Positions 22,118-32,288 of a stretch of 64,000 nucleotides of DNA are shown here, one piece after another (the first letter of the stretch is position 1; every line of letters begins with the position of its first letter). The translations under genes were made by a program, and so were the position numbers. Origin of the DNA: Sulfurimicrobium lacus (GTDB taxonomy: Bacteria > Pseudomonadota > Gammaproteobacteria > Burkholderiales > Sulfuricellaceae); the NCBI RefSeq assembly GCF_011764585.1, contig NZ_AP022853.1, forward strand, positions 727,501 to 791,500, read 5' to 3'. Below the pieces are notes generated by a model, which did no database searches, was not told where the DNA came from, and saw only the letters and a program-made list of their open reading frames with translations.

Positions 22118-23458
22118 CTAATCCCGCAATTCGTAGCGAATCAACTTTCTGTAAAGAGTTCGTTCGCTGATCCCAAGAATATCAGCCACTTTGCGCCGGT
22201 GCCCGTCGTGTTGTTCGAGCAGGCGAGCGATGTGGCTCGCTTCCAGTTCTGCCATCGATGCGCCTTTTTTCTTTGGCGCAACTGCGGCGGCTAGCGCAAG
22301 TTCTGGTTGCGCCGCGCTAACTCCCTGGTTATTGGCGTCGAAGCGAATATCTTTTGCCGTGATGATGCCGTTGTCGCTGAGTGCCAGCGCTTTTTGCAGG
22401 ATGTTACGTAGTTCGCGCACATTGCCGGGGTAATCATAGGTTACCAGCCGCGTCATGGCACTTTCGTTGAGTTCGCAGCTGCGCCCGCCATTCATGCGCG
22501 ACAGCATGGACTTGGCCAGGGCAGGGATATCGCTGCGACGCTCCCGCAGCGCGGGCAATGTGACGTCAATGCCTGCAATTCGGTAATAAAGGTCGAGACG
22601 AAACCGGCCTTGGTCCACCATTTCCAGCAAGTCCCGGTTGGTTGCGCTAACGACCCGTACGTCGGCGCGCAGCGTTTCGGTGCCACCCACGCGGCGGTAC
22701 TCGCCGCTCTCCAATACGCGCAGCAGCTTGGCTTGCATCGTGAGCGGGATTTCGCCGATCTCGTCGAGGAATAGCGTGCCGTTGTCTGCGAGTTCGAATA
22801 GCCCCAGCTTCCGTCCTACACAACCGGTGAATGCCCCGCGCTCATGACCGAAGAGTTCGCTTTCGAACATCGATTCGGCGATGGAGGCGCAATCTACTGC
22901 GATAAAGGCTTTCCCTTCCCGGTTGGAGCGGCGATGAAGGTATTGCGCCGCCAATTCCTTTCCGACACCGCTTTCGCCGTATAGCAGAATGGAGGCTTCA
23001 GATTCGGCCACGCGCGTCAGATTTTCCACGCAGGACAGGAATGTGGCCGATTTGCCGATCATGCGCATTTCGTCGCAGTCCATGGCTGTGGTCGGGGCGA
23101 AGGGGTAAATCGCTTCTCCTAAATAAAGCTCGCCGTTTAGTCCCAGGATTGGGTGCCCTTGGATGCGTACGTGCTCTGGTTGATTGTGGTGGTCATAGTG
23201 GGTGTGCAGTACTTGCTGGCCTGAGCCGGTGGCGAATACTTGCTGGTGTGGGCAGGTCTCGCCGTTGAGGTGGCAGGGCACCGAGGCGTGGTGGGAAATT
23301 TCATGGCAGGTGCGTCCAACCACATGTGCTTCATCTGTGCCATAGCGCTTGCAGTAGGCGCGATTGGCGGCCACGATGCGGTAGTTGATGTCAATGAGCA
23401 CGAAGGGGTTTTCCTGCGCGTCAATAAGGGATTGAAGTTGGACTGGGGTGTGGTTCAT
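22118..23458 (-). CDS. Sigma54-dependent transcriptional activator with Cys-containing PAS domain
   Basis: A 446-aa enhancer-binding protein. Order seen: PAS domain (about 8-120) with an unusual Cys set including [20 protein letters not shown] followed by [11 protein letters not shown]+ domain (about 130-365) with Walker A GESGVGKE, the sigma54 contact loop GAFTG, Walker [11 protein letters not shown] and FRLDLYYRI; Fis-type helix-turn-helix at the C-terminus ([19 protein letters not shown]). There is no receiver domain, so the PAS domain is the likely sensor, perhaps through its thiols or a bound metal or heme (inference). It is divergent from the sulfide cluster, whose promoter is of the sigma54 type, making it the probable activator. 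Confidence 0.93.
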
Positions 23459-23472
23459 GTCTGGCTGCGACC

Positions 23473-23490
23473 TGTCAATATGTCATGACA
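23473..23490. promoter_or_regulatory. Operator-like site 1 (TGTCAATATGTCATGACA)
   Basis: It contains the perfect 10-bp palindrome TGTCATGACA at 23481-23490 preceded by a further TGTCA half-site. It sits 15 bp upstream of the activator ATG, a position suited to autoregulation. It matches site 2 at 16 of 18 positions. Confidence 0.7.
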
Positions 23491-23643
23491 GTATACGTGA
23501 CGGTTTTTGATTTGCAACAGCAGCGCATCGATTTGATAATACGAAACAAAACAGTTAGTTATGATTATTGTGGTTGGCCGGACTAAGTGGTAAGGCATCA
23601 TTGGTTTGAATTAGCCACTAATAATCAAAGAGATGACTGTTGG

Positions 23644-23661
23644 TGTCAAAATGACATGACA
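23644..23661. promoter_or_regulatory. Operator-like site 2 / upstream activating site (TGTCAAAATGACATGACA)
   Basis: It contains TGTCA-AAA-TGACA and overlapping TGACATGACA repeats. Its centre lies about 95 bp upstream of the start point predicted from the -24/-12 promoter, a usual distance for a sigma54 activator site. It is near-identical to site 1, 171 bp away. Confidence 0.7.
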
Positions 23662-23721
23662 CGATGGCATGTAATTGCCGGAGAGGCGTCTTGTAGCTAT
23701 GTGATTCAGGTACTTACGTTC

Positions 23722-23737
23722 TGGCATAAGGATTGCT
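23722..23737 (+). promoter_or_regulatory. Sigma54 (-24/-12) promoter of the sulfide cluster
   Basis: TGGCATAAGGATTGCT matches the consensus TGGCAC-N5-TTGCW with one mismatch, and the GG and GC doublets are separated by exactly 10 nt. The predicted start point near 23748 leaves a leader of about 38 nt. Confidence 0.8.
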
Positions 23738-23785
23738 ACAAGGCTATCCGGATGTTTATAGCGTAATTACTGTTAGGGGTTAACT

Positions 23786-23986
23786 ATGACTGATCCAATC
23801 TGGAAATTGCAGGCGGGCGTCTCCATGAGCCAGGAAACGGCTCAGGAGGTAGCCAAGATCGCCTGCGCATTGAAGTCACTTTCGGCATATGTTACGTTGA
23901 TGCACGAGAATGAGGATGCACCAGAGGAGCTTCAACAACTTGTGGATGAGGGGTTGGACGCGATGAAAAAAGTGTTTGTGTGGTAA
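23786..23986 (+). CDS. Small protein of unknown function, first gene of the sulfide cluster
   Basis: A 66-aa soluble protein starting MTDPIWKLQAGVSMSQETAQ. It is mostly helical by composition, has a single cysteine (IACALKSL) and an acidic middle (HENEDAPEELQQLVDEGLDA). There is no signal peptide or membrane segment. It is the first gene after the sigma54 promoter and ends 19 nt before the SQR gene, so it is certainly cotranscribed with it. I do not recognise the family; a cytoplasmic partner or regulator of sulfide oxidation is the natural hypothesis. Confidence 0.8.
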   Translation: MTDPIWKLQAGVSMSQETAQEVAKIACALKSLSAYVTLMHENEDAPEELQQLVDEGLDAMKKVFVW

Positions 23987-24005
23987 TGAAATGGAGAACA
24001 AGTAA

Positions 24006-25283
24006 ATGGCACATATTGTAATCATGGGTGCAGGCATCGGCGGCATGCCGATGGCCTACGAAATGCGCGAGCAACTGAGGTCCTCGGACAAATTGACGGT
24101 AATTGGAAACGGCGACAGTTTTCAGTTTACGCCCTCCAACCCCTGGGTGGCCGTCAACTGGCGTACGCGGGAAGATATTCAGTTTCCGGTCGCGCCCTAT
24201 TTCGAGCGCAAGAACATCGGCTTCATTTCATCTCCAGTAAAGCGCGTTCACCCCGAAAAAAATCAGGTGGAACTGACTGACGGGCAGGTTATCGATTACG
24301 ATTTTCTGGTTATTGCTACCGGGCCGAAGCTGGCGTTCGATGAGGTAGAAGGACTGGGGCCGGAAAAGCATACCCATTCAGTATGCAATGTGGACCATGC
24401 GGTAAAGGCTGGTGAAGCCTGGGGCAAGTTCGTCAAAGAGCCAGGTCCGATCGTGGTGGGTGCGGCTCAGGGCGCTTCCTGCTATGGCCCGGCTTACGAG
24501 TTCGCCTTCATCATGGATACCGACCTGCGCCGTCGTCGTATCCGCGACAAAGTTCCGATGACCTTCGTTACTGCCGAGCCGTATATCGGCCATCTCGGCT
24601 TGGGCGGAGTGGGTGATTCCAAGGGCTTGTTGGAATCGGCCATGCGCGATCGTCACGTCAAGTGGATTACCAATGCCAAGGTTACCAAGGTCGAGGCCGG
24701 CAAAATGTTTGTGGCCGAGCATGACGATATGGGTAACGTAAAGAAGGAACACGAACTGCCGTTCAAGTACGGCATGATGTTGCCGGCATTCAAAGGCGTC
24801 GATGCCGTATTCGGTATCGAGGGGCTGACCAACCCGCGCGGCTTTATCCTGATCGACCCTTACCAGCGCAACCCGAAATTCAACAATATCTATTCGGTAG
24901 GCGTATGTGTTGCGATTCCACCGGTCGAAGCAACACCGGTTCCGACTGGTGCGCCCAAGACCGGTTACATGATCGAAACCATGGTGACAGCCGCAGCGCA
25001 CAACATCCGTGCCGTGCTGGACGGCAAGGAGCCGTATGAAAAGGCAACCTGGAACGCGATCTGCTTGGCTGATTTCGGTGATACCGGCGCGGCGTTCGTT
25101 GCCCTGCCGCAGATTCCGCCGCGCAACGTGAACTGGTTCAAGGAAGGCAAGTGGGTGCACCTGGCCAAGATCGCCTTTGAGAAATACTTCATCCGCAAGA
25201 TGAAGAAGGGTACGACCGAGCCCTTGTATGAAAAATACGTGCTTGGTGCCCTTGGTATCAAGAAGCTTAAAGATAAGTCCTGA
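24006..25283 (+). CDS. sqr: Sulfide:quinone oxidoreductase, type I (Acidithiobacillus-like)
   Basis: FAD enzyme on the periplasmic face of the inner membrane that oxidizes sulfide to polysulfide and reduces quinone. The 425-aa protein starts MAHIVIMGAGIGGMPMAYEM (FAD-binding GxGxxG). All three redox cysteines are present, in HSVCNVDHA (about 128), GASCYGPAYEF (about 160) and NAICLADFG (about 345). GAPKTGYMIETMV and the amphipathic C-terminus KIAFEKYFIRKMKKG, a membrane anchor in known structures, are also seen. From memory it closely resembles the Acidithiobacillus ferrooxidans enzyme along its whole length. AATGGAGAACAAGTAA precedes the ATG. It is the core of the sigma54-controlled cluster. 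Confidence 0.92.
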   Translation: MAHIVIMGAGIGGMPMAYEMREQLRSSDKLTVIGNGDSFQFTPSNPWVAVNWRTREDIQFPVAPYFERKNIGFISSPVKRVHPEKNQVELTDGQVIDYDFLVIATGPKLAFDEVEGLGPEKHTHSVCNVDHAVKAGEAWGKFVKEPGPIVVGAAQGASCYGPAYEFAFIMDTDLRRRRIRDKVPMTFVTAEPYIGHLGLGGVGDSKGLLESAMRDRHVKWITNAKVTKVEAGKMFVAEHDDMGNVKKEHELPFKYGMMLPAFKGVDAVFGIEGLTNPRGFILIDPYQRNPKFNNIYSVGVCVAIPPVEATPVPTGAPKTGYMIETMVTAAAHNIRAVLDGKEPYEKATWNAICLADFGDTGAAFVALPQIPPRNVNWFKEGKWVHLAKIAFEKYFIRKMKKGTTEPLYEKYVLGALGIKKLKDKS

Positions 25284-25296
25284 TTTTGCGGGAGGC

Positions 25297-25319
25297 ACCT
25301 CTCCGGTTTCGGGGAGGTG
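25297..25319 (+). terminator. Hairpin after SQR (possible attenuator)
   Basis: CACCTCTCCGG-TTT-CGGGGAGGTG forms a stem with one wobble pair, followed only by GTTTAATG, so it may be a weak terminator or an mRNA 3'-end stabilizer inside the cluster. Confidence 0.5.
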
Positions 25320-25349
25320 TTTAATGCAATTGATCAATTGGAGGTATTG

Positions 25350-25562
25350 ATGAATAAAATTCTGACCATGGTGTGGTTGGCTTGTGGGCTGGTCGTCACA
25401 CCTGTGGTGTATGCGGCGGACGCAGCGCCTGCCGACCAGAAAAAGGACCAGAAAGCCGCCGGCGAAGATAAAGACAAAGAAAAAGACAAGAAGGCCGGGG
25501 AAGAAGGTAAGGGTAAGGGCGAAAAGAAGGGTGATGGCGGCGCCGAACCTGAATGCAACTGA
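25350..25562 (+). CDS. Small exported Lys/Glu-rich protein with C-terminal cysteine
   Basis: A 70-aa precursor. The ATG at 25350 follows a good TTGGAGG site and gives a signal peptide MNKILTMVWLACGLVVTPVVYAA. The mature part is about 45 residues of almost only Lys, Glu, Asp, Gly and Ala (KDKEKDKKAGEEGKGKGEKK) and ends PECN. The single cysteine near the very C-terminus is the only reactive side chain, recalling sulfur carriers with a terminal Cys arm, though no homology to SoxY or DsrC is visible. It is probably disordered and periplasmic. Unknown family. Confidence 0.75.
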   Translation: MNKILTMVWLACGLVVTPVVYAADAAPADQKKDQKAAGEDKDKEKDKKAGEEGKGKGEKKGDGGAEPECN

Positions 25563-25623
25563 TTACGCTGTAAAGTACGCCATCACGTATTTTCTTACAT
25601 AAAAAAATATCAAGGGGACGAAT

Positions 25624-26274
25624 ATGACTATAAAAAATAAATTAGTAGCTTCTACCGTTTTGCTGGCTAGCGCCCTGTTGCCAAGTCTGTCTTTCGCGCT
25701 CGACGTGAACATCACAGCAGACATGCCGTTGGTTGAGGTCATGCACAAGGGGCAGAAGGTTGCCATTCAGCGCAACCAGAATCAGGATAACAACGTAAAT
25801 CCGGCGTTTGCCAAGACTTCGCGCAAGTGTCCTCCGTTCTGCATTCAACCGGGAGAACTGGCGCCGGGCGTGGAAACCATCGGCGAACTGGAGATGTTGC
25901 ATTACCTGAAGAAGATGAGCAGTGGTGATGCCAGCATCATGGTGATCGATTCGCGCACACCTGACTGGGTGGCAAAGGGCACGATCCCCGGCGCGGTGAA
26001 CATCCCTTGGGACAAGCTCAATATCGGCAAGTCAGACCCCATTACGGTGCAGGAAATCCTCGAAAAGCAGTTGGGCGCCAAGCAGTCTGAAGGCTTCTGG
26101 AATTTCGAAAGCGCCAAGACCCTGGTGATGTTCTGCAACGGCTCCTGGTGCGGTCAGTCGCCCACCAATATCAAAGGGCTGCTCAAGATCGGCTACCCCG
26201 CCAACAAAATCAAGTGGTACCGCGGGGGGATGCAGGACTGGGAATTGCTCGGCCTGACGACGGTCAAGCCGTAA
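25624..26274 (+). CDS. Exported rhodanese-like protein with two Cys pairs (copy 1)
   Basis: A 216-aa precursor with signal peptide MTIKNKLVASTVLLASALLPSLSFA. The mature protein has a segment SRKCPPFCIQPGELAPGV (C-x3-C) and then a rhodanese domain (about 95-210: VIDSRTPDWVAKGTIPGAVN and the active loop FCNGSWCGQSP). The active loop has a second cysteine three residues after the catalytic one. It is probably a periplasmic sulfurtransferase taking sulfane sulfur from SQR-made polysulfide (inference). Its tandem paralogue follows at 26329. Confidence 0.88.
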   Translation: MTIKNKLVASTVLLASALLPSLSFALDVNITADMPLVEVMHKGQKVAIQRNQNQDNNVNPAFAKTSRKCPPFCIQPGELAPGVETIGELEMLHYLKKMSSGDASIMVIDSRTPDWVAKGTIPGAVNIPWDKLNIGKSDPITVQEILEKQLGAKQSEGFWNFESAKTLVMFCNGSWCGQSPTNIKGLLKIGYPANKIKWYRGGMQDWELLGLTTVKP

Positions 26275-26328
26275 TCCGGCGCGTTACCGCACATATATAA
26301 ATAAAATAAACATAGAGGAGTAAAGTTT

Positions 26329-27021
26329 ATGAAGAAAGATCTGCTCAAGCTTTCCGGTCTTGTGCTGGCGCTGTTTGCTACGGTTGGCATGTCTGGTTGC
26401 GCTTCCACCGGCGGCAATGCCGCTGCTGCAGCCAAACCCTTGGAGGTTGGCATTGCTGCGGATATCCAGTCTGTGGATGTTATGCATGGCGGCCAGGTGG
26501 TAACCATTCAGCGTAACCAGAATCAGGATAACAACATCAACCCTGCTTTCGGCAAAACCTCGCGCAAGTGTCCGCCATTCTGTATTCAGCCTGGTGAACT
26601 GGCTCCCGGCGTGAAGACCATCGGCGAATTGGAAATGCTGCATTACCTGCAAAAGGTGAGCGCTGGTGACAAGACCGTGATGGTGATCGATTCCCGTACT
26701 CCGGATTGGGTCGAGAAAGGCACGATCCCCGGCGCGGTGAGCATTCCCTGGGACAAGCTCAATATTGGCAAATCCGACCCGATCACGGTGCAGGAAATCC
26801 TTGAGAAGCAGCTGGGTGCGAAGCAACAGGACGGCTTCTGGGACTTCTCCGGCGCCAAGACGCTGGTGATGTTCTGCAACGGTCACTGGTGCGCCCAGTC
26901 CCCGACCAATATCAAGGGGCTGCTCAAAATCGGTTACCCTGCCCATAAATTGGTCTGGTATCGCGGTGGCATGCAGGAGTGGGAAGCCTTGGGGCTGACC
27001 ACGGTCAAGCCCGCAAAGTAA
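26329..27021 (+). CDS. Rhodanese-like lipoprotein with two Cys pairs (copy 2)
   Basis: A 230-aa tandem paralogue of the previous gene; about four of five residues agree from QRNQNQDNN onward. The key difference is the N-terminus: MKKDLLKLSGLVLALFATVG then MSGCAS, a lipobox that should anchor it in a membrane, where copy 1 is soluble. It keeps CPPFCIQP and the active loop FCNGHWCAQSP. The divergence of the active-loop residue (Ser to His) suggests a different sulfur acceptor. A terminator follows. Confidence 0.88.
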   Translation: MKKDLLKLSGLVLALFATVGMSGCASTGGNAAAAAKPLEVGIAADIQSVDVMHGGQVVTIQRNQNQDNNINPAFGKTSRKCPPFCIQPGELAPGVKTIGELEMLHYLQKVSAGDKTVMVIDSRTPDWVEKGTIPGAVSIPWDKLNIGKSDPITVQEILEKQLGAKQQDGFWDFSGAKTLVMFCNGHWCAQSPTNIKGLLKIGYPAHKLVWYRGGMQEWEALGLTTVKPAK

Positions 27022-27043
27022 TTTGAATTTAAGTGTTTACTTA

Positions 27044-27070
27044 AAAGGCGGCGCAAGCCGCCTTTTTTTT
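27044..27070 (+). terminator. Rho-independent terminator after the rhodanese pair
   Basis: AAAGGCGGC-GCAA-GCCGCCTTT followed by TTTTT. It ends the core sulfide transcript; the PhnD-like gene downstream would need readthrough or its own promoter. Confidence 0.92.
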
Positions 27071-27105
27071 GCCTCGACTTGGTCTTAAATGGATTGGAGG
27101 AAATT

Positions 27106-27921
27106 ATGATGAAATTCCTGACGGCAATGCTGCTCATGCTGTTGGTAATTCCGGCTGGTGCTGCGGAGCGACTGCTGCTCGGCGTCAATACCGGCGTTCC
27201 GGCCCAGGATGATCAGCGGGATATAAGCGATAAGTACAAACCGTTGGCCAATTATCTGGGCACGATGCTGAAACGCCCGGTCAAGCTCGAGGTGAGCCAG
27301 AATCTGTCGGCCTCCGAGCGACGCCTGAAAAAGGATGCATTCGATGTCTTTCTCGGTCCGCCCCAAGTTATAGCACAGGCCATGAAGGGTTCCGGATATG
27401 TGCCGATCGCCCGATATCCGGGTAAGCTCAAAGCGGCATTCGTGGTGATGGATACAAGTAATATCAAAAACCTGTCAGATGCAAAAGGCAGGCGATTGGG
27501 ACTGCCGGACAAGGAAAGCCTTGCGTCCAATCTGGCACTGGCAAAACTGCGTTTTTCCAGAATGACACCGGAAACTCATTTCGCGGAAATTTTCCACCAG
27601 CGCTTCCAGGATGCGACTCTGAACGCGTTGCTGATTGGCCGTGTCGATGTGGCGGCGGTGACCGCCGGTTTTGCCAAGAAGTGGGTGGGAGAGCATCCGG
27701 GGGCGCGTGTAATCGAGGAAAGCTATGAAGTCCCACATTTCGCTTTTGCGGTCAGCGAAGACATGAGCGAGGCTGATGCCATGCAGATCCGGCAGGTCTT
27801 GCTGGATGCGCCTAATACCGTCGAAGGCCGAGCTATGCTGGGGAAGATGGGGCACAAGGATGGCTTCATTCCCACCAGCAAGGATGATTATTCGCCTCTG
27901 ATACGGTTGTTCGGTTTATAG
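27106..27921 (+). CDS. PhnD-like periplasmic substrate-binding protein
   Basis: A 271-aa precursor. The ATG at 27106 follows TTGGAGG and gives signal peptide MMKFLTAMLLMLLVIPAGAA. The mature sequence (LLLGVNTGVPAQDDQRDISD, YKPLANYLGTMLKRPVKLEV, DVFLGPPQVIAQAMKGSGYV) follows the phosphate/phosphonate-binding PhnD fold, also used as sensor domains. No ABC permease or ATPase is adjacent, so it may bind an oxyanion for a remote transporter or act as a sensor or chaperone. Its place after the rhodaneses suggests a sulfur oxyanion ligand, an inference only. Confidence 0.82.
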   Translation: MMKFLTAMLLMLLVIPAGAAERLLLGVNTGVPAQDDQRDISDKYKPLANYLGTMLKRPVKLEVSQNLSASERRLKKDAFDVFLGPPQVIAQAMKGSGYVPIARYPGKLKAAFVVMDTSNIKNLSDAKGRRLGLPDKESLASNLALAKLRFSRMTPETHFAEIFHQRFQDATLNALLIGRVDVAAVTAGFAKKWVGEHPGARVIEESYEVPHFAFAVSEDMSEADAMQIRQVLLDAPNTVEGRAMLGKMGHKDGFIPTSKDDYSPLIRLFGL

Positions 27922-28008
27922 CGGGGGCGAGGTAGGGCGTGTTCAATCCGGCGGGTTTTGCTTAAGTCATTACTCGTCAGCCCAGGATCGCTTACAATGC
28001 GAAGCCTT

Positions 28009-30504
28009 ATGAATGCAACAGCCAAACCTGACTGTGTCTCGCAGGAATGTTTCCACTGCGGTCAGCCAATTCCTCAGAATTCCCACTACCCCGTGGTAAT
28101 CGAAGCCGTTTCACGCGAAATGTGTTGCCGGGGCTGCCAGGCGGTAGCCGAGGCAATTGTGGATGGGGGCCTCGAGGATTACTACCGTCACCGCACGGCA
28201 AAATCAGGCACGGCTGCGCTGGATGCCGCGGATGTGGTGCCGGAGTGGTTGCGTCAGGCAAAGCTTTACGATCTTCCCGAGGTGCAGAAAAGTTTTGTGC
28301 GCCAGGAGGTCGGCGAGGTCCGCGAGGCTTCCCTGATCCTGGAAGGCATTGTCTGCGCCGCCTGCGTCTGGCTTAACGAACACCATCTTTCCGGGCTGCC
28401 AGGCGTGCTGTCGGTTGAGATCAATTATTCCACCCATCGTGCGCGGGTCCGCTGGGATAATTCGCGCATCAAGCTATCCGAAATCCTTCACGCCGTCGCG
28501 GCGATCGGTTACACGGCCCACCCTTTTGACCCGGGTCGCCAGGAACAGCTTTTCCTCAAGGAGCGCCAGGCTGCGCTGCGGCGCCTGTTCATCGCCGGCA
28601 TCGGCATGATGCAGGTGATGATGTACGCGATACCGGCTTACGTCGCCGGCGGGGATGGCACCATGCCGCCCTGGATCGAAAGCATAATGCGCTGGGCCAG
28701 CCTGACCCTGACGCTGCCAGTGGTCGGCTATTCGGCCTGGCCGTTCTTCCTCGGCGCCTGGCGCGATCTGAAGCTGCGCCAGGCGGGCATGGATGTGCCG
28801 GTGGCGCTGGGCATCGGCGCCGCATTTATGGCCAGTGTCTATGCGACCTTGACGGGAGGGGGCGAAGTTTATTTTGACTCCATCACCATGTTCGTGTTTT
28901 TCCTCCTTTCCGGACGCTTCCTTGAAATGGGCGCAAGGCGGAAGGCCGCAGATGCTGCCGAGAAACTGGTCAAGATGCAACCGGCCATGGCAAGCCGCCT
29001 CCCCGCGTATCCAAACACCCAGTCCGATGAACTGGTGGCTGTGAGCAGCTTGAGTCTGGGAGAATATCTTCTGATTCGTCCGGGCGAATCGGTGCCGGCA
29101 GACGGCGTAGTGGAGCAGGGTAGCAGCCGGGTGGATGAGTCACTGCTGACCGGTGAAAGCCGCCCGGTGCCAAGAAATGCGGGAGGGCGGCTGATAGCGG
29201 GTACCATCAATGTGGATAGCCCGCTGATTATGCGGATTGAAGGTCTGGGGCAGGACACGGTGCTGTCCGGCATTGTGCGCCTGCTTGATCGCGCACTGGC
29301 TGAAAAACCGGCGTTGGCGCAGGTGGCGGACCGGGTTGCCAGCTGGTTTGTGCTGGCCCTGCTGCTGATTGCCGTCGGCACAGGCGTGGCATGGTATTTC
29401 ATCGAGCCGGCTCGGGCTTTCTGGATTACCGTTGCTGTATTGGTAGTGAGTTGTCCCTGCGCCCTGTCTTTGGCGACTCCCGCTGCCCTAACTGCGGCTA
29501 CGGGCAGTCTGACCCGTCTGGGGTTGCTAACCACACGAGGCCACGCACTGGAAACGTTGGCCAAGGCCACGCACTTTGTTTTCGACAAGACCGGCACCCT
29601 GACCTACGGCAAGATGAACTTGCTGGAAACGGTTGCGCTGGGCGCTGTCGGCCGCGAGCGCTGCCTGGCTATGGCAGCGGCGCTGGAACGGGCCTCTGAG
29701 CATGCTATTGCCAATGCCATTGCCACTGCTGCGGCGGGCAGCAACGATCAGTTCAGTGTCGAGGAAACCACCAATTTGCCTGGTAGTGGGGTCGAGGGAA
29801 AAATCGGTGGTCAGCGCTATCGCCTGGGGCGGCCTGCGTTTGTGGCTGAACTGTGCGGTACTCCTTTGCCGGATGCGCTGCTCCAAGTCCCGGAAGGTGC
29901 AACGGTGGTGGCTTTGGGCAGTGAAGACGCATGGCTTGCGCTATTCGCCTTGGGGGATACGCTGCGCCCTGATGCTGCGTATCTGGTTAATGGTTTGCAG
30001 CTGCGCGGGAAGACGGTGGTGCTCCTGTCGGGCGATCAGGAAGAAGCTGTGCACCGGGTTGCACAGCAGCTTGGTATCGCTACGGTGCGTGCCGCCATGA
30101 CGCCGCAAGGGAAGCTGGACTATGTGCGTGGCTTGCAGCGCGACGGGGCTGTGGTGGCGATGGTCGGCGACGGGGTGAACGATGCGCCGGTGCTTGCCGC
30201 AGCCGGAGTCTCCGTCGCCATGGGCGGCGGCACTCAGGTGGCGCGTGCCAGTGCCGACATGATCCTGCTTTCGGAACAATTGCCGCACTTGCTCGCGGGC
30301 GTGGATATCGCCGTCAAAACCAGCCGCATTATCCGCCAGAATCTGACGTGGGCATTCGTCTATAATTTAATCGCTATTCCACTTGCCGCGCTAGGTTATG
30401 TTACCCCCTGGATGGCGGGGATTGGCATGTCCGCCAGTTCGCTCATGGTGGTTCTGAATGCATTGCGCCTGGTCGAGCCGGACGCTGTCAAAGGACGGAA
30501 ATAA
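28009..30504 (+). CDS. ccoI: Copper-translocating P1B ATPase CcoI/FixI type
   Basis: Pumps copper out of the cytoplasm for cbb3 oxidase assembly. Order seen: N-terminal Cys-rich metal-binding segment (CFHCGQPIP and CCRGCQAV, PF12156 type), an HMA domain with VCAACVWL, eight membrane segments, the A-domain TGES, the intramembrane metal site SCPCALSLATP, the phosphorylation motif FDKTGTLTYG and VGDGVNDAPVLA. The start is uncertain: ATGs at 27997 and 28009 are both possible and neither has a good ribosome site; 28009 gives 831 aa. It is followed 3 nt later by ccoS. Confidence 0.95.
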   Translation: MNATAKPDCVSQECFHCGQPIPQNSHYPVVIEAVSREMCCRGCQAVAEAIVDGGLEDYYRHRTAKSGTAALDAADVVPEWLRQAKLYDLPEVQKSFVRQEVGEVREASLILEGIVCAACVWLNEHHLSGLPGVLSVEINYSTHRARVRWDNSRIKLSEILHAVAAIGYTAHPFDPGRQEQLFLKERQAALRRLFIAGIGMMQVMMYAIPAYVAGGDGTMPPWIESIMRWASLTLTLPVVGYSAWPFFLGAWRDLKLRQAGMDVPVALGIGAAFMASVYATLTGGGEVYFDSITMFVFFLLSGRFLEMGARRKAADAAEKLVKMQPAMASRLPAYPNTQSDELVAVSSLSLGEYLLIRPGESVPADGVVEQGSSRVDESLLTGESRPVPRNAGGRLIAGTINVDSPLIMRIEGLGQDTVLSGIVRLLDRALAEKPALAQVADRVASWFVLALLLIAVGTGVAWYFIEPARAFWITVAVLVVSCPCALSLATPAALTAATGSLTRLGLLTTRGHALETLAKATHFVFDKTGTLTYGKMNLLETVALGAVGRERCLAMAAALERASEHAIANAIATAAAGSNDQFSVEETTNLPGSGVEGKIGGQRYRLGRPAFVAELCGTPLPDALLQVPEGATVVALGSEDAWLALFALGDTLRPDAAYLVNGLQLRGKTVVLLSGDQEEAVHRVAQQLGIATVRAAMTPQGKLDYVRGLQRDGAVVAMVGDGVNDAPVLAAAGVSVAMGGGTQVARASADMILLSEQLPHLLAGVDIAVKTSRIIRQNLTWAFVYNLIAIPLAALGYVTPWMAGIGMSASSLMVVLNALRLVEPDAVKGRK

Positions 30505-30507
30505 GCG

Positions 30508-30690
30508 GTGGAAATACTTTATTTAATCATCCCGATTAGCGTGATCCTGATATTTTTCATCATCTGGATTTTCCTTTGGGCGGTAAAACATGGCCAGTTC
30601 GATGATATGGAGGGTCCTGCCCACCGTATTCTTATGGACGACGACAGGGCGCGCACCGAACCTTCCGAACATAAACCGAACGAAGAGTAA
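30508..30690 (+). CDS. ccoS: Cbb3 oxidase assembly protein CcoS
   Basis: A 60-aa single-pass membrane protein required for cofactor insertion into cbb3 oxidase. The start is GTG at 30508. The sequence MEILYLIIPISVILIFFIIW, then GQFDDMEGPAHRILMDDD, matches the CcoS signature of a membrane helix and DDxxGP motif. It is in the normal position directly after ccoI. Confidence 0.95.
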   Translation: MEILYLIIPISVILIFFIIWIFLWAVKHGQFDDMEGPAHRILMDDDRARTEPSEHKPNEE

Positions 30691-30714
30691 ATTCGTTCCC
30701 TCGCGAGCAAATCG

Positions 30715-30731
30715 CCGCGACATTTTGTCGC
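30715..30731. repeat. Short perfect hairpin upstream of the ccoN FNR site
   Basis: CGCGACATTTTGTCGCG, 7-bp arms with a 3-nt loop, followed by AAAAATG on the plus strand (a T run on the minus strand). It may be the 3' end of the ccoIS transcript or an operator; the sequence does not decide. Confidence 0.45.
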
Positions 30732-30747
30732 GAAAAATGAATCAAGT

Positions 30748-30789
30748 TTGATCTAGCGCAAAATTCCATTTACAGGATTCAGTTAATAT
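30748..30789 (+). promoter_or_regulatory. FNR-type site and -10 of the ccoN promoter
   Basis: TTGAT-CTAG-CGCAA (30748-30761) matches the FNR/Anr consensus TTGAT-N4-ATCAA at 8 of 10 positions. TAATAT at 30784-30789 is a good -10. A start point at 30796 places the FNR site exactly at -41.5, the class II activation position. The fnr gene lies 6 kb downstream. Confidence 0.75.
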
Positions 30790-30854
30790 TGGGACAGTAA
30801 TGTCCTGAAATAGACTTTACCTAAGGCGACTTTTTGTAATCAGGGAGGGAATAT

Positions 30855-32288
30855 ATGGAAGCGCAAACCACGTACAACTACAAGGTTGTGCGGCAATTCG
30901 CCATCATGACGGTGGTGTGGGGAATTGTCGGCATGCTGGTCGGGGTGATCATCGCCTCGCAGTTGATTTGGCCGGAATTAAATTTTGAGCCGTGGCTGAC
31001 GTATGGCCGTCTGCGTCCACTGCATACCAATGCGGTGATTTTTGCTTTTGGTGGTTCTGGTCTATTTGCGACCTCGTACTACATCGTGCAGCGCACTTGT
31101 CATACGCGTTTGCTTTCTGATGGCTTGGCTGCATTCACCTTCTGGGGATGGCAACTGGTGATTCTTCTGGCAGCAATTACTCTGCCGCTGGGTTACACCA
31201 CTTCCAAAGAGTATGCCGAGCTGGAATGGCCGATTGACATCTTGATTACCGTGGTCTGGGTGGTCTATGCAATCGTGTTCTTCGGCACCGTCATGAAGCG
31301 TAAAACCACGCATATTTATGTGGCCAACTGGTTTTTTGGCGCCTTCATTATCACCATCGCGTTGCTTCACCTCGTCAATAATGCCGAGTTGCCAGTCAGT
31401 TTCATGGGCATGAAGTCCTATTCCGCCTATGCTGGCGTGCAGGATGCAATGATTCAGTGGTGGTACGGTCACAACGCCGTGGGCTTCTTCCTGACGACCG
31501 CTTTCCTGGGCATGATGTATTACTTCGTTCCCAAGCAGGCAGGGCGCCCGGTATATTCCTACCGCCTGTCCGTGGTGCACTTCTGGGCGCTGGTCTTTAC
31601 CTACATGTGGGCCGGTCCTCACCATCTGCATTACACCGCGTTGCCTGACTGGACCCAGTCCATCGGTATGATCTTCTCGCTGATTCTGCTGGCACCTTCC
31701 TGGGGCGGCATGATCAACGGCATCATGACTCTCTCGGGTGCCTGGCACAAACTGCGTACTGATCCTATCCTGAAGTTCCTGGTGACCTCGCTGTCCTTCT
31801 ACGGTATGTCTACCTTCGAAGGTCCGATGATGTCCATCAAAACCGTGAACGCGCTGTCTCACTATACCGACTGGACCGTGGGTCACGTGCACTCCGGCGC
31901 CCTGGGTTGGGTGGCGATGGTGACCATCGGTTCCCTGTACTACCTGATCCCGCGCCTGTTTGGCCGCGAACAGATGTATAGCGTCAAGCTGATCACGACC
32001 CATTTCTGGATTGCCACGATCGGTGTGGTGCTGTACATCGCCGCGCTGTGGATTTCCGGTGTGATGCAGGGATTGATGTGGCGCGCGGTGAACGCCGACG
32101 GAACGCTGACCTACAGCTTCGCAGAAGCAGTCAAGGTGGTGTACCCGTTCTACACGATTCGCTTGATTGGCGGCACTTTGTTCCTGGTTGGAATGCTGAT
32201 CATGGCCTACAACGTATTCAAGACTGTGGCTGGCTCCAAGGCAGTGGATGATGCGGCGATCCCCGCTCCTGCCGGCGCTCACGCTTAA
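30855..32288 (+). CDS. ccoN: Cbb3-type cytochrome c oxidase subunit I
   Basis: Catalytic haem-copper subunit of the high-affinity oxidase. The 477-aa protein has about 12 membrane helices and the conserved [52 protein letters not shown] and [18 protein letters not shown] segments with the haem and copper histidines. A GGGAGG site precedes the ATG. It is the first gene of ccoNOQP and is placed under an FNR-type promoter, as expected for microaerobic induction. Confidence 0.98.

Follow-up and report, generated by a model that had tools for sequence, protein, structure and literature searches.

A putative FisR-type sulfide regulon of Sulfurimicrobium lacus with type I sulfide:quinone oxidoreductase and two small one-cysteine proteins

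In this work we describe a gene cluster of Sulfurimicrobium lacus, a probable sulfur oxidiser, located within a stretch of 64,000 nucleotides that is referred to below as the window (contig NZ_AP022853.1, positions 727,501 to 791,500; in our numbering G000:C1:727501-791500) and that belongs to a genome of one contig, 3.83 Mb long. The cluster consists of a gene for a sigma54-dependent activator and, divergent from it, genes for a 66-amino-acid (aa) protein called here s66, a type I sulfide:quinone oxidoreductase (SQR), a 70-aa peptide with a cysteine in its tail (the EPxC-tail peptide), two rhodaneses (Rhd1 and Rhd2) and a PhnD-like binding protein. An earlier note, made from the letters of this DNA, had listed these seven genes; all seven open reading frames (ORFs) were confirmed at or near the positions it gave, and Pfam agreed with the families it named. 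By its sequence the locus belongs with the FisR sulfide regulons, as a conserved variant containing two one-cysteine proteins for which our family scans and literature searches gave no description. Its features, in window coordinates, are as follows.

22118..23458, minus strand: FisR-like sigma54 activator with PAS-type sensor domain, AAA+ domain and Fis helix-turn-helix (HTH) domain (Pfam)
23481..23490, no strand assigned: palindrome TGTCATGACA, candidate activator site (motif search)
23652..23661, plus strand: TGACATGACA, second candidate activator site (motif search)
23722..23737, plus strand: TGGCATaaggaTTGCT, predicted sigma54 -24/-12 promoter (pattern match)
23786..23986, plus strand: s66, 66 aa, without signal peptide, single cysteine Cys27, predicted two-helix hairpin
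24006..25283, plus strand: type I SQR (Pyr_redox_2), with C127, C159 and C353 aligned to the cysteines of the Acidithiobacillus ferrooxidans SQR
25294..25322, plus strand: strong hairpin with a weak T run in the gap between the SQR and peptide genes, possible attenuator or mRNA-processing site
25350..25562, plus strand: EPxC-tail peptide, 70 aa, signal-peptide-like start, charged Lys/Glu-rich linker, the only mature cysteine penultimate (AEPECN)
25624..26274, plus strand: Rhd1, rhodanese with a signal-peptide-like start (by eye), CPPFC and CNGSWCGQS
26329..27021, plus strand: Rhd2, rhodanese with a lipobox-like GMSGC24 (by eye), CPPFC and CNGHWC
27043..27066, plus strand: intrinsic terminator, probable operon end (hairpin and T run 3' of Rhd2)
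27106..27921, plus strand: PhnD-like periplasmic binding protein (Phosphonate-bd), no cysteine, starting at the first ATG behind a Shine-Dalgarno-like sequence

Counts given below come from a sample of the order (399 genomes, G handles), a sample of the class (369 genomes) and a set of named loci (L handles), which overlaps partially with the G genomes. All calls of peptide starts, signal peptides and lipoboxes were made by eye, with no predictor. The nearest named loci are those of a Sulfurimicrobium metagenome-assembled genome (MAG; L111) and a Sulfuricella MAG (L049): SQR is 95% identical to that of the window in both of them, and FisR is identical in 90% and 88%, respectively.

The activator matches the Pfam families Sigma54_activat (PF00158, 221 bits), HTH_8 (PF02954, 43 bits) and PAS, thus combining the sigma54 AAA+ domain with a Fis-type HTH. 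Its sensor domain carries three cysteines, C51, C62 and C69, spaced by 11 and 7 residues. This triad was found in 9/9 aligned activators, the window's included; it has the same spacing in the homologue of C. metallidurans (42% identical) and is present also in two Pseudoalteromonas homologues. In the FisR of Cupriavidus the third cysteine is C71. The first pair in the window protein is spaced as C53 and C64 of Cupriavidus FisR, the third cysteine follows 7 residues further, and the gene is divergent from an SQR operon bearing a predicted sigma54 promoter. In the Cupriavidus protein, sulfane sulfur is reported to crosslink C53 and C64 as a tetrasulfide (PMC8614764). The sequence of the window protein matches that of FisR, a persulfide sensor already known among sigma54 activators, and its activation by sulfane sulfur would follow from membership in that family.

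Placement of SQR in such a setting had been considered unusual in the earlier note, and this has to be corrected. In Acinetobacter baumannii a sigma54 activator, named FisR after the Cupriavidus regulator, is reported to stand divergently beside an sqr operon for which a sigma54 promoter is predicted (PMC7315123), and the C. metallidurans homologue is likewise divergent from a flavoprotein gene, the product of which is closest to the mitochondrial SQR, whereas the window enzyme is of type I. These two loci rule out the idea that SQR does not stand under a sigma54 activator. FisR was first named in Cupriavidus pinatubonensis, where sensing is likewise cysteine-based (PMC8614764). The window shares with A. 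baumannii the divergent activator, the predicted sigma54 promoter and SQR, but the operon partners differ: persulfide dioxygenase, TauE and homoserine dehydrogenase are given for A. baumannii (PMC7315123), while in the window we find type I SQR, s66, the tail-cysteine peptide and two CPPFC rhodaneses, and no dioxygenase among the nine window proteins scanned around the locus.

Two side observations concern the activator itself. In two Pseudoalteromonas records the triad-bearing FisR-like activator is divergent from cytochrome bd oxidase genes, not from SQR (L152:2024-6329, genes named by reading; L153:1481-6299, annotated). Furthermore, the loop that contacts sigma54, with the motif GAFTGA, reads GAFTGC in 7/9 aligned activators, that of the window included (C213), and GAFTGS in the other 2; a cysteine at this place is curious in a sulfur sensor.

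The strict sigma54 pattern TGGCAY-N5-TTGC was found in 31 of 32 FisR/sqr intergenic regions, against 0.01 expected, and a palindrome of the TGTCATGACA type with at most one mismatch in 23 of them, against 0.4 expected. Expected counts were derived from single-base shuffles, and the set of 32 comprises the window, 29 named loci, L039 and L042; it includes close relatives, some of its borders were set by hand, and other FisR loci were omitted. The window promoter (23722-23737) is the sole sigma54 match in 64 kb, and by itself it proves nothing, because 0.66 matches are expected there by chance. Perfect copies of TGTCATGACA occur at two places in the genome, the other being inside a gene that reads as phage-like. 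These counts give good support to a predicted sigma54 control of the SQR operon, in agreement with the control claimed for the sulfide cluster in the earlier note. At the far end, Rhd2 has a hairpin and T run behind it in all five genus genomes inspected, that of the window being one of them.

The window SQR is matched by the A. ferrooxidans SQR (PDB 3sz0 and others) over its full length (residues 2-424 of 425, 562 bits), with three cysteines aligned; of other solved SQRs, the Aquifex enzyme scores 370 bits and the next-best ones, of other types, at most 62 bits. The A. ferrooxidans enzyme is called type I (PMC6382920), and enzymes of this type are reported to be respiratory and of high affinity (PMC6382920, PMC4643136). 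Full-length similarity to a characterised type I enzyme together with the three conserved cysteines places the window protein in this type, and it is the sole match for its query at E <= 1e-10 in the genome. In the window it is adjoined by s66.

The protein s66 represents a real protein family with one invariant cysteine. Cys27 is present in 55/55 aligned sequences, i.e. the window and 54 of 64 named loci (alignment A3; ten were omitted, two as partial matches and eight for brevity). Nucleotide differences fall mainly at third codon positions (23/27 in the comparison with the nearest relative and 50-57% in five pairs at greater distance), so s66 is under selection as a protein. In the sample of the order 26 copies were found in 22/399 genomes, and in 26/26 cases SQR is the next gene on the same strand, 15-70 bases downstream (Fisher p 3e-13 for co-occurrence, with SQR found at E <= 1e-180 in 115/399 genomes). 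The sample of the class holds s66 in 7/369 genomes, that of the window among them. The named scan gave 64 loci, 49 of them with SQR directly downstream, and a script found a divergent FisR at 32 of these 49 (two were too short to judge). The idea that s66 forms a part of the FisR switch was rejected, as s66-SQR pairs occur without a divergent FisR and FisR/SQR pairs without s66.

The structure model of s66 is a two-helix hairpin (predicted local distance difference test, pLDDT, 88). Its fold search against the PDB gave 85 matches at E <= 10 and none at E <= 0.001, and a profile search of solved sequences returned a computationally designed protein (E 7e-4) and a MarR regulator (E 0.66), both judged not meaningful. 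Nothing meaningful was found in Pfam either, where the best E value was 0.098 for the window protein and 0.004, in 3/55 members only, for its homologues.

Distribution of s66 among close relatives is uneven. Within the genus, four of the six genomes sampled keep FisR and SQR and lack s66, and in the Sulfurimicrobium MAG (L111:8001-8078) only the last 26 codons are matched, upstream of SQR, perhaps as a decayed copy; losses or patchy gain are therefore likely. A tandem s66-SQR-s66-SQR duplication was noticed in L066, L069, G014, G213 and G243, Sulfuricella sp. T08 being among them. At the 15 named loci with no SQR beside s66, all titled Gammaproteobacteria, Chromatiales, Proteobacteria or gamma-symbiont, an S24/LexA-like peptidase gene stands on one side in 12/15, and on the other side there is an aprA-like gene in 2/15 (L097, L101) or an inorganic-pyrophosphatase-like one in 3/15 (L096, L098, L104), all named from reading.

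Relatives of Rhd1 with the CPP[FY]C motif were found at E <= 1e-55 in 25/399 genomes, and a short ORF ending in [DE]PxC plus 1-3 residues lies directly upstream of such a rhodanese in 11 of these 25, compared with 8/4000 random stretches having such a tail. As the pattern was written after examples had been seen, this comparison is partly post hoc. The peptides of G167 and G347 were missed by the first filter and found by reading; one rhodanese copy per genome was checked (for G201, one of its two), and L125 offered only 266 bases upstream. With the addition of L111 the set counts 12 peptides, all of which begin similarly to a signal peptide and, past residue 24, contain 0-3 hydrophobic or aromatic residues and a single cysteine, last or next to last but one at most (1-2 residues off the C-terminus). 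Some of them have a K/E-rich linker and others (G167, G347) an N/Q/S/T/P-rich one, which rules out K/E richness as the hallmark; a linker of variable composition, with only the signal-like start and the C-terminal cysteine conserved, is what would be expected of a tether. The description in the earlier note, a Lys/Glu-rich exported peptide ending in CysAsn, thus fits the window peptide but its compositional part does not extend to the family. In Pfam the 70-aa peptide has a below-cut-off match only (PF07172, 19.7 vs 30 bits).

SQR stands directly upstream of the peptide gene in 7/11 genomes, and in the remaining four (G121, G167, G266, G347) it does not. In G121 the peptide-rhodanese operon is on another contig than FisR and SQR, and a perfect palindrome with TGGCAC-N5-ATGC precedes it; in G266 the FisR gene itself is the divergent neighbour of the peptide-rhodanese genes, and the strict sigma54 pattern is found there. 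Before the peptide operon of G347 there is a perfect palindrome, accompanied by a weaker site resembling a promoter, and before that of G167 a near-palindrome and a weak site (by eye). The sites at the detached operons together with the G266 layout suggest that the peptide is tied to FisR independently of SQR.

Both rhodaneses belong to the rhodanese superfamily (PF00581, 48.5 and 45.0 bits vs 22.2 cut-off, active-site cysteine present), while their match to TIGR03865 (PQQ_CXXCW) is weak (24 and 22.5 bits vs 128), and they differ from both families by an N-terminal CPP[FY]C motif and a CNGxWC loop of their own. Rhd2 is 82% identical to Rhd1 over Rhd1 residues 24-216. The lipobox-like GMSGC of Rhd2 was seen in 6/6 genomes inspected, and the different localization of the two proteins, postulated previously, agrees with their signal-peptide-like and lipobox-like starts as judged by eye. 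No solved structure related to Rhd1 was found at E <= 0.01, and a model built from 3 sequences (mean pLDDT 50) was not used. Genomes with this rhodanese are enriched in SQR (21/25 vs 115/399 overall, Fisher p 5e-9), so that co-occurrence with SQR elsewhere, expected in the earlier note, holds for the rhodaneses as well as for s66 and the peptide.

The PhnD-like protein matches PF12974 (133 bits), in common with PhnD phosphonate-binding proteins, and scores 46.7 bits against the PhnD equivalog cut-off of 261.1; its mechanically called ORF starts at 27079. No PhnC or PhnE transporter gene was found among the neighbours scanned (rhodanese, P-type ATPase). Position of the gene is kept in all 5 genus genomes, and it is probably transcribed separately, because the intrinsic terminator precedes it in 5/5. 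In G266 the gene after the rhodanese encodes a PhnD-rhodanese fusion (PF12974 and PF00581). Relatives were found in 20/29 genomes searched; 17 of the 38 weaker matches were read, and a rhodanese domain at the C-terminus is present in 10 of these and absent from 7. The window's own genome has one of each kind, L174 (fusion type) and L175 (no rhodanese domain); the fusion gene (L174:5304-6491, minus strand; G000:C1 near 143.3-144.5 kb) lies upstream of a cation-efflux-like gene and is divergent from an aroE-like one, by reading. Such fusions, which set these relatives apart from PhnD phosphonate-binding proteins, offer Rosetta-stone evidence of a sulfur-related role. The PhnD-like protein had been counted as a member of the cluster; the functional link gains support from the fusions, whereas the terminator points to a transcript of its own. 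A literature search on PhnD with rhodanese found nothing related, as judged by title and start of abstract.

The explanation that we favour, and hold to be probable with considerable reservation, is a sulfide-inducible FisR regulon in which sulfane sulfur from type I SQR is handled in the periplasm by a module of peptide and rhodaneses. FisR, switched on by sulfane sulfur as known for its family, would act through the candidate palindromic sites and the sigma54 promoter to drive transcription of s66 and sqr; the peptide, Rhd1 and Rhd2 genes would depend on the same promoter, probably by partial read-through of the hairpin, up to the terminator common in the genus. SQR would convert sulfide to sulfane sulfur and pass electrons to quinone, again as in its known family. 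Anatomy and linkage suggest the further roles: the exported peptide may be a flexible tether whose terminal cysteine swaps sulfane sulfur with the CPPFC rhodaneses in the periplasm, much as the carrier arm of SoxY works; soluble Rhd1 and lipoprotein Rhd2 may shift sulfur between places, Rhd2 setting the chemistry at a membrane; s66 may be a small cytoplasmic one-cysteine partner that takes the SQR product or adjusts SQR; and the PhnD-like protein, expressed separately, may bind a related sulfur compound. Regulation and gene linkages are the well supported part of this proposal, and the carrier chemistry of peptide and rhodanese is inferred.

Several observations weigh against this explanation. 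Each of s66, peptide and rhodanese is absent from some relatives. Six genomes with FisR, SQR and the peptide-rhodanese pair are devoid of s66 (G106, G182, G358, G383, G080, G121), so this protein is dispensable, and in 14/25 genomes the rhodanese copy that was checked showed no peptide gene. Fifteen of the 49 named s66-SQR loci show by script no divergent FisR despite more than 1.5 kb upstream, although one of them, L075, does have it and was missed by the filter. Another 15 of the 64 named s66 loci have no SQR beside s66; 8 of them span more than 400 bases downstream, and at the other 7 the absence is less certain, because the sequence ends within 90-313 bases. In the window a strong hairpin lies between the SQR and peptide genes, with a counterpart in G080 that has a long T run, so the genes behind it may be expressed at a lower level or on their own. 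Finally, at the peptide operons detached from SQR in G121, G347 and G167 the sigma54-like sites are off the strict pattern.

The same genes could form a regulon of detoxification and thiol protection, where FisR and SQR remove sulfide, and the peptide and rhodaneses scavenge periplasmic polysulfide and shield envelope thiols, with no energy-yielding route. We regard this as unlikely, even if the frequent absence of the peptide at rhodanese copies gives the module an accessory look: where the titles of the s66 scan give a genus, Sulfuricella, Thiobacillus and Hydrogenophilus are among those named, and these are sulfur oxidisers (many other titles give class or phylum only). Moreover, while the A. 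baumannii FisR operon serves detoxification (PMC7315123), the window SQR is of type I, the high-affinity and respiratory form according to PMC6382920 and PMC4643136. Closer to even, though still short of it, are the chances that s66 does not carry sulfur and instead, as a small partner of type I SQR, regulates it or assists in its assembly. Its strictly upstream position (26/26), the many positions conserved besides the cysteine in the 55-member alignment and the predicted helical hairpin would suit such a role, but the invariant Cys27 would not, nor would the 8 named loci where s66 occurs without SQR over more than 400 bases downstream, two of them beside aprA-like genes.

For the peptide, a role as metal ligand, cell-wall or lipid anchor or modified-peptide precursor, with the rhodanese merely sharing its promoter, appears doubtful to us. 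Its linker sequence is not conserved, and a copper-type P-ATPase and cbb3 oxidase follow the PhnD-like gene; on the other hand, no peptide-modifying enzyme was found among the nine proteins scanned around the peptide, which accompanies the rhodanese elsewhere, and the stretches read in G121, G167, G266 and G347 hold no P-ATPase. Chance assembly of neighbours without common function would agree with the terminator separating the PhnD-like gene and with the close relative L049, in which s66-SQR is followed by a P-ATPase, without peptide and rhodanese genes. It is nevertheless highly improbable: the linkages are repeated across families, both small proteins recur in the same positions in other genomes, and FisR-type sites are present at the detached peptide-rhodanese operon.

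SoxY and DsrC have a cysteine on a flexible C-terminal arm. Their resemblance to the EPxC-tail peptide is a working likeness only, limited to a cysteine near the C-terminus and a flexible arm, in a peptide that looks like a signal peptide plus linker without a folded domain and has no SoxY family among its Pfam matches. In a bolder extension of the favoured explanation, put forward tentatively as a rather improbable proposal, the EPxC-tail peptide could be a free-standing periplasmic swinging arm, disordered and exported, whose one C-terminal cysteine would shuttle sulfane sulfur among SQR, both rhodaneses and the PhnD-like binder, with s66 as the cytoplasmic one-cysteine counterpart, linked to SQR or, in other lineages, perhaps to adenosine 5'-phosphosulfate (APS) reductase. 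If true, it would mean a two-compartment sulfane-sulfur relay under FisR, built from families not known as carriers.

To our knowledge, the onward carriage of SQR-made sulfane sulfur in sulfur-oxidising bacteria is not settled. The locus supplies two testable one-cysteine candidates for it, both strongly linked in genomes, together with a promoter and operator suggesting the conditions of their synthesis. As far as the consulted literature goes, FisR control, described for a detoxification operon with persulfide dioxygenase, would here also extend to an SQR of type I, in relatives of betaproteobacteria that oxidise sulfur; literature searches on the genus, periplasmic rhodanese with SQR, sigma54 control of sqr and the small partner turned up nothing on these proteins. 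Beyond the cluster, the genes at window positions 27997-32288 encode a copper-type P-ATPase (CcoI-like by position) and subunit I of cbb3 oxidase, an ordinary arrangement that is not part of the system.

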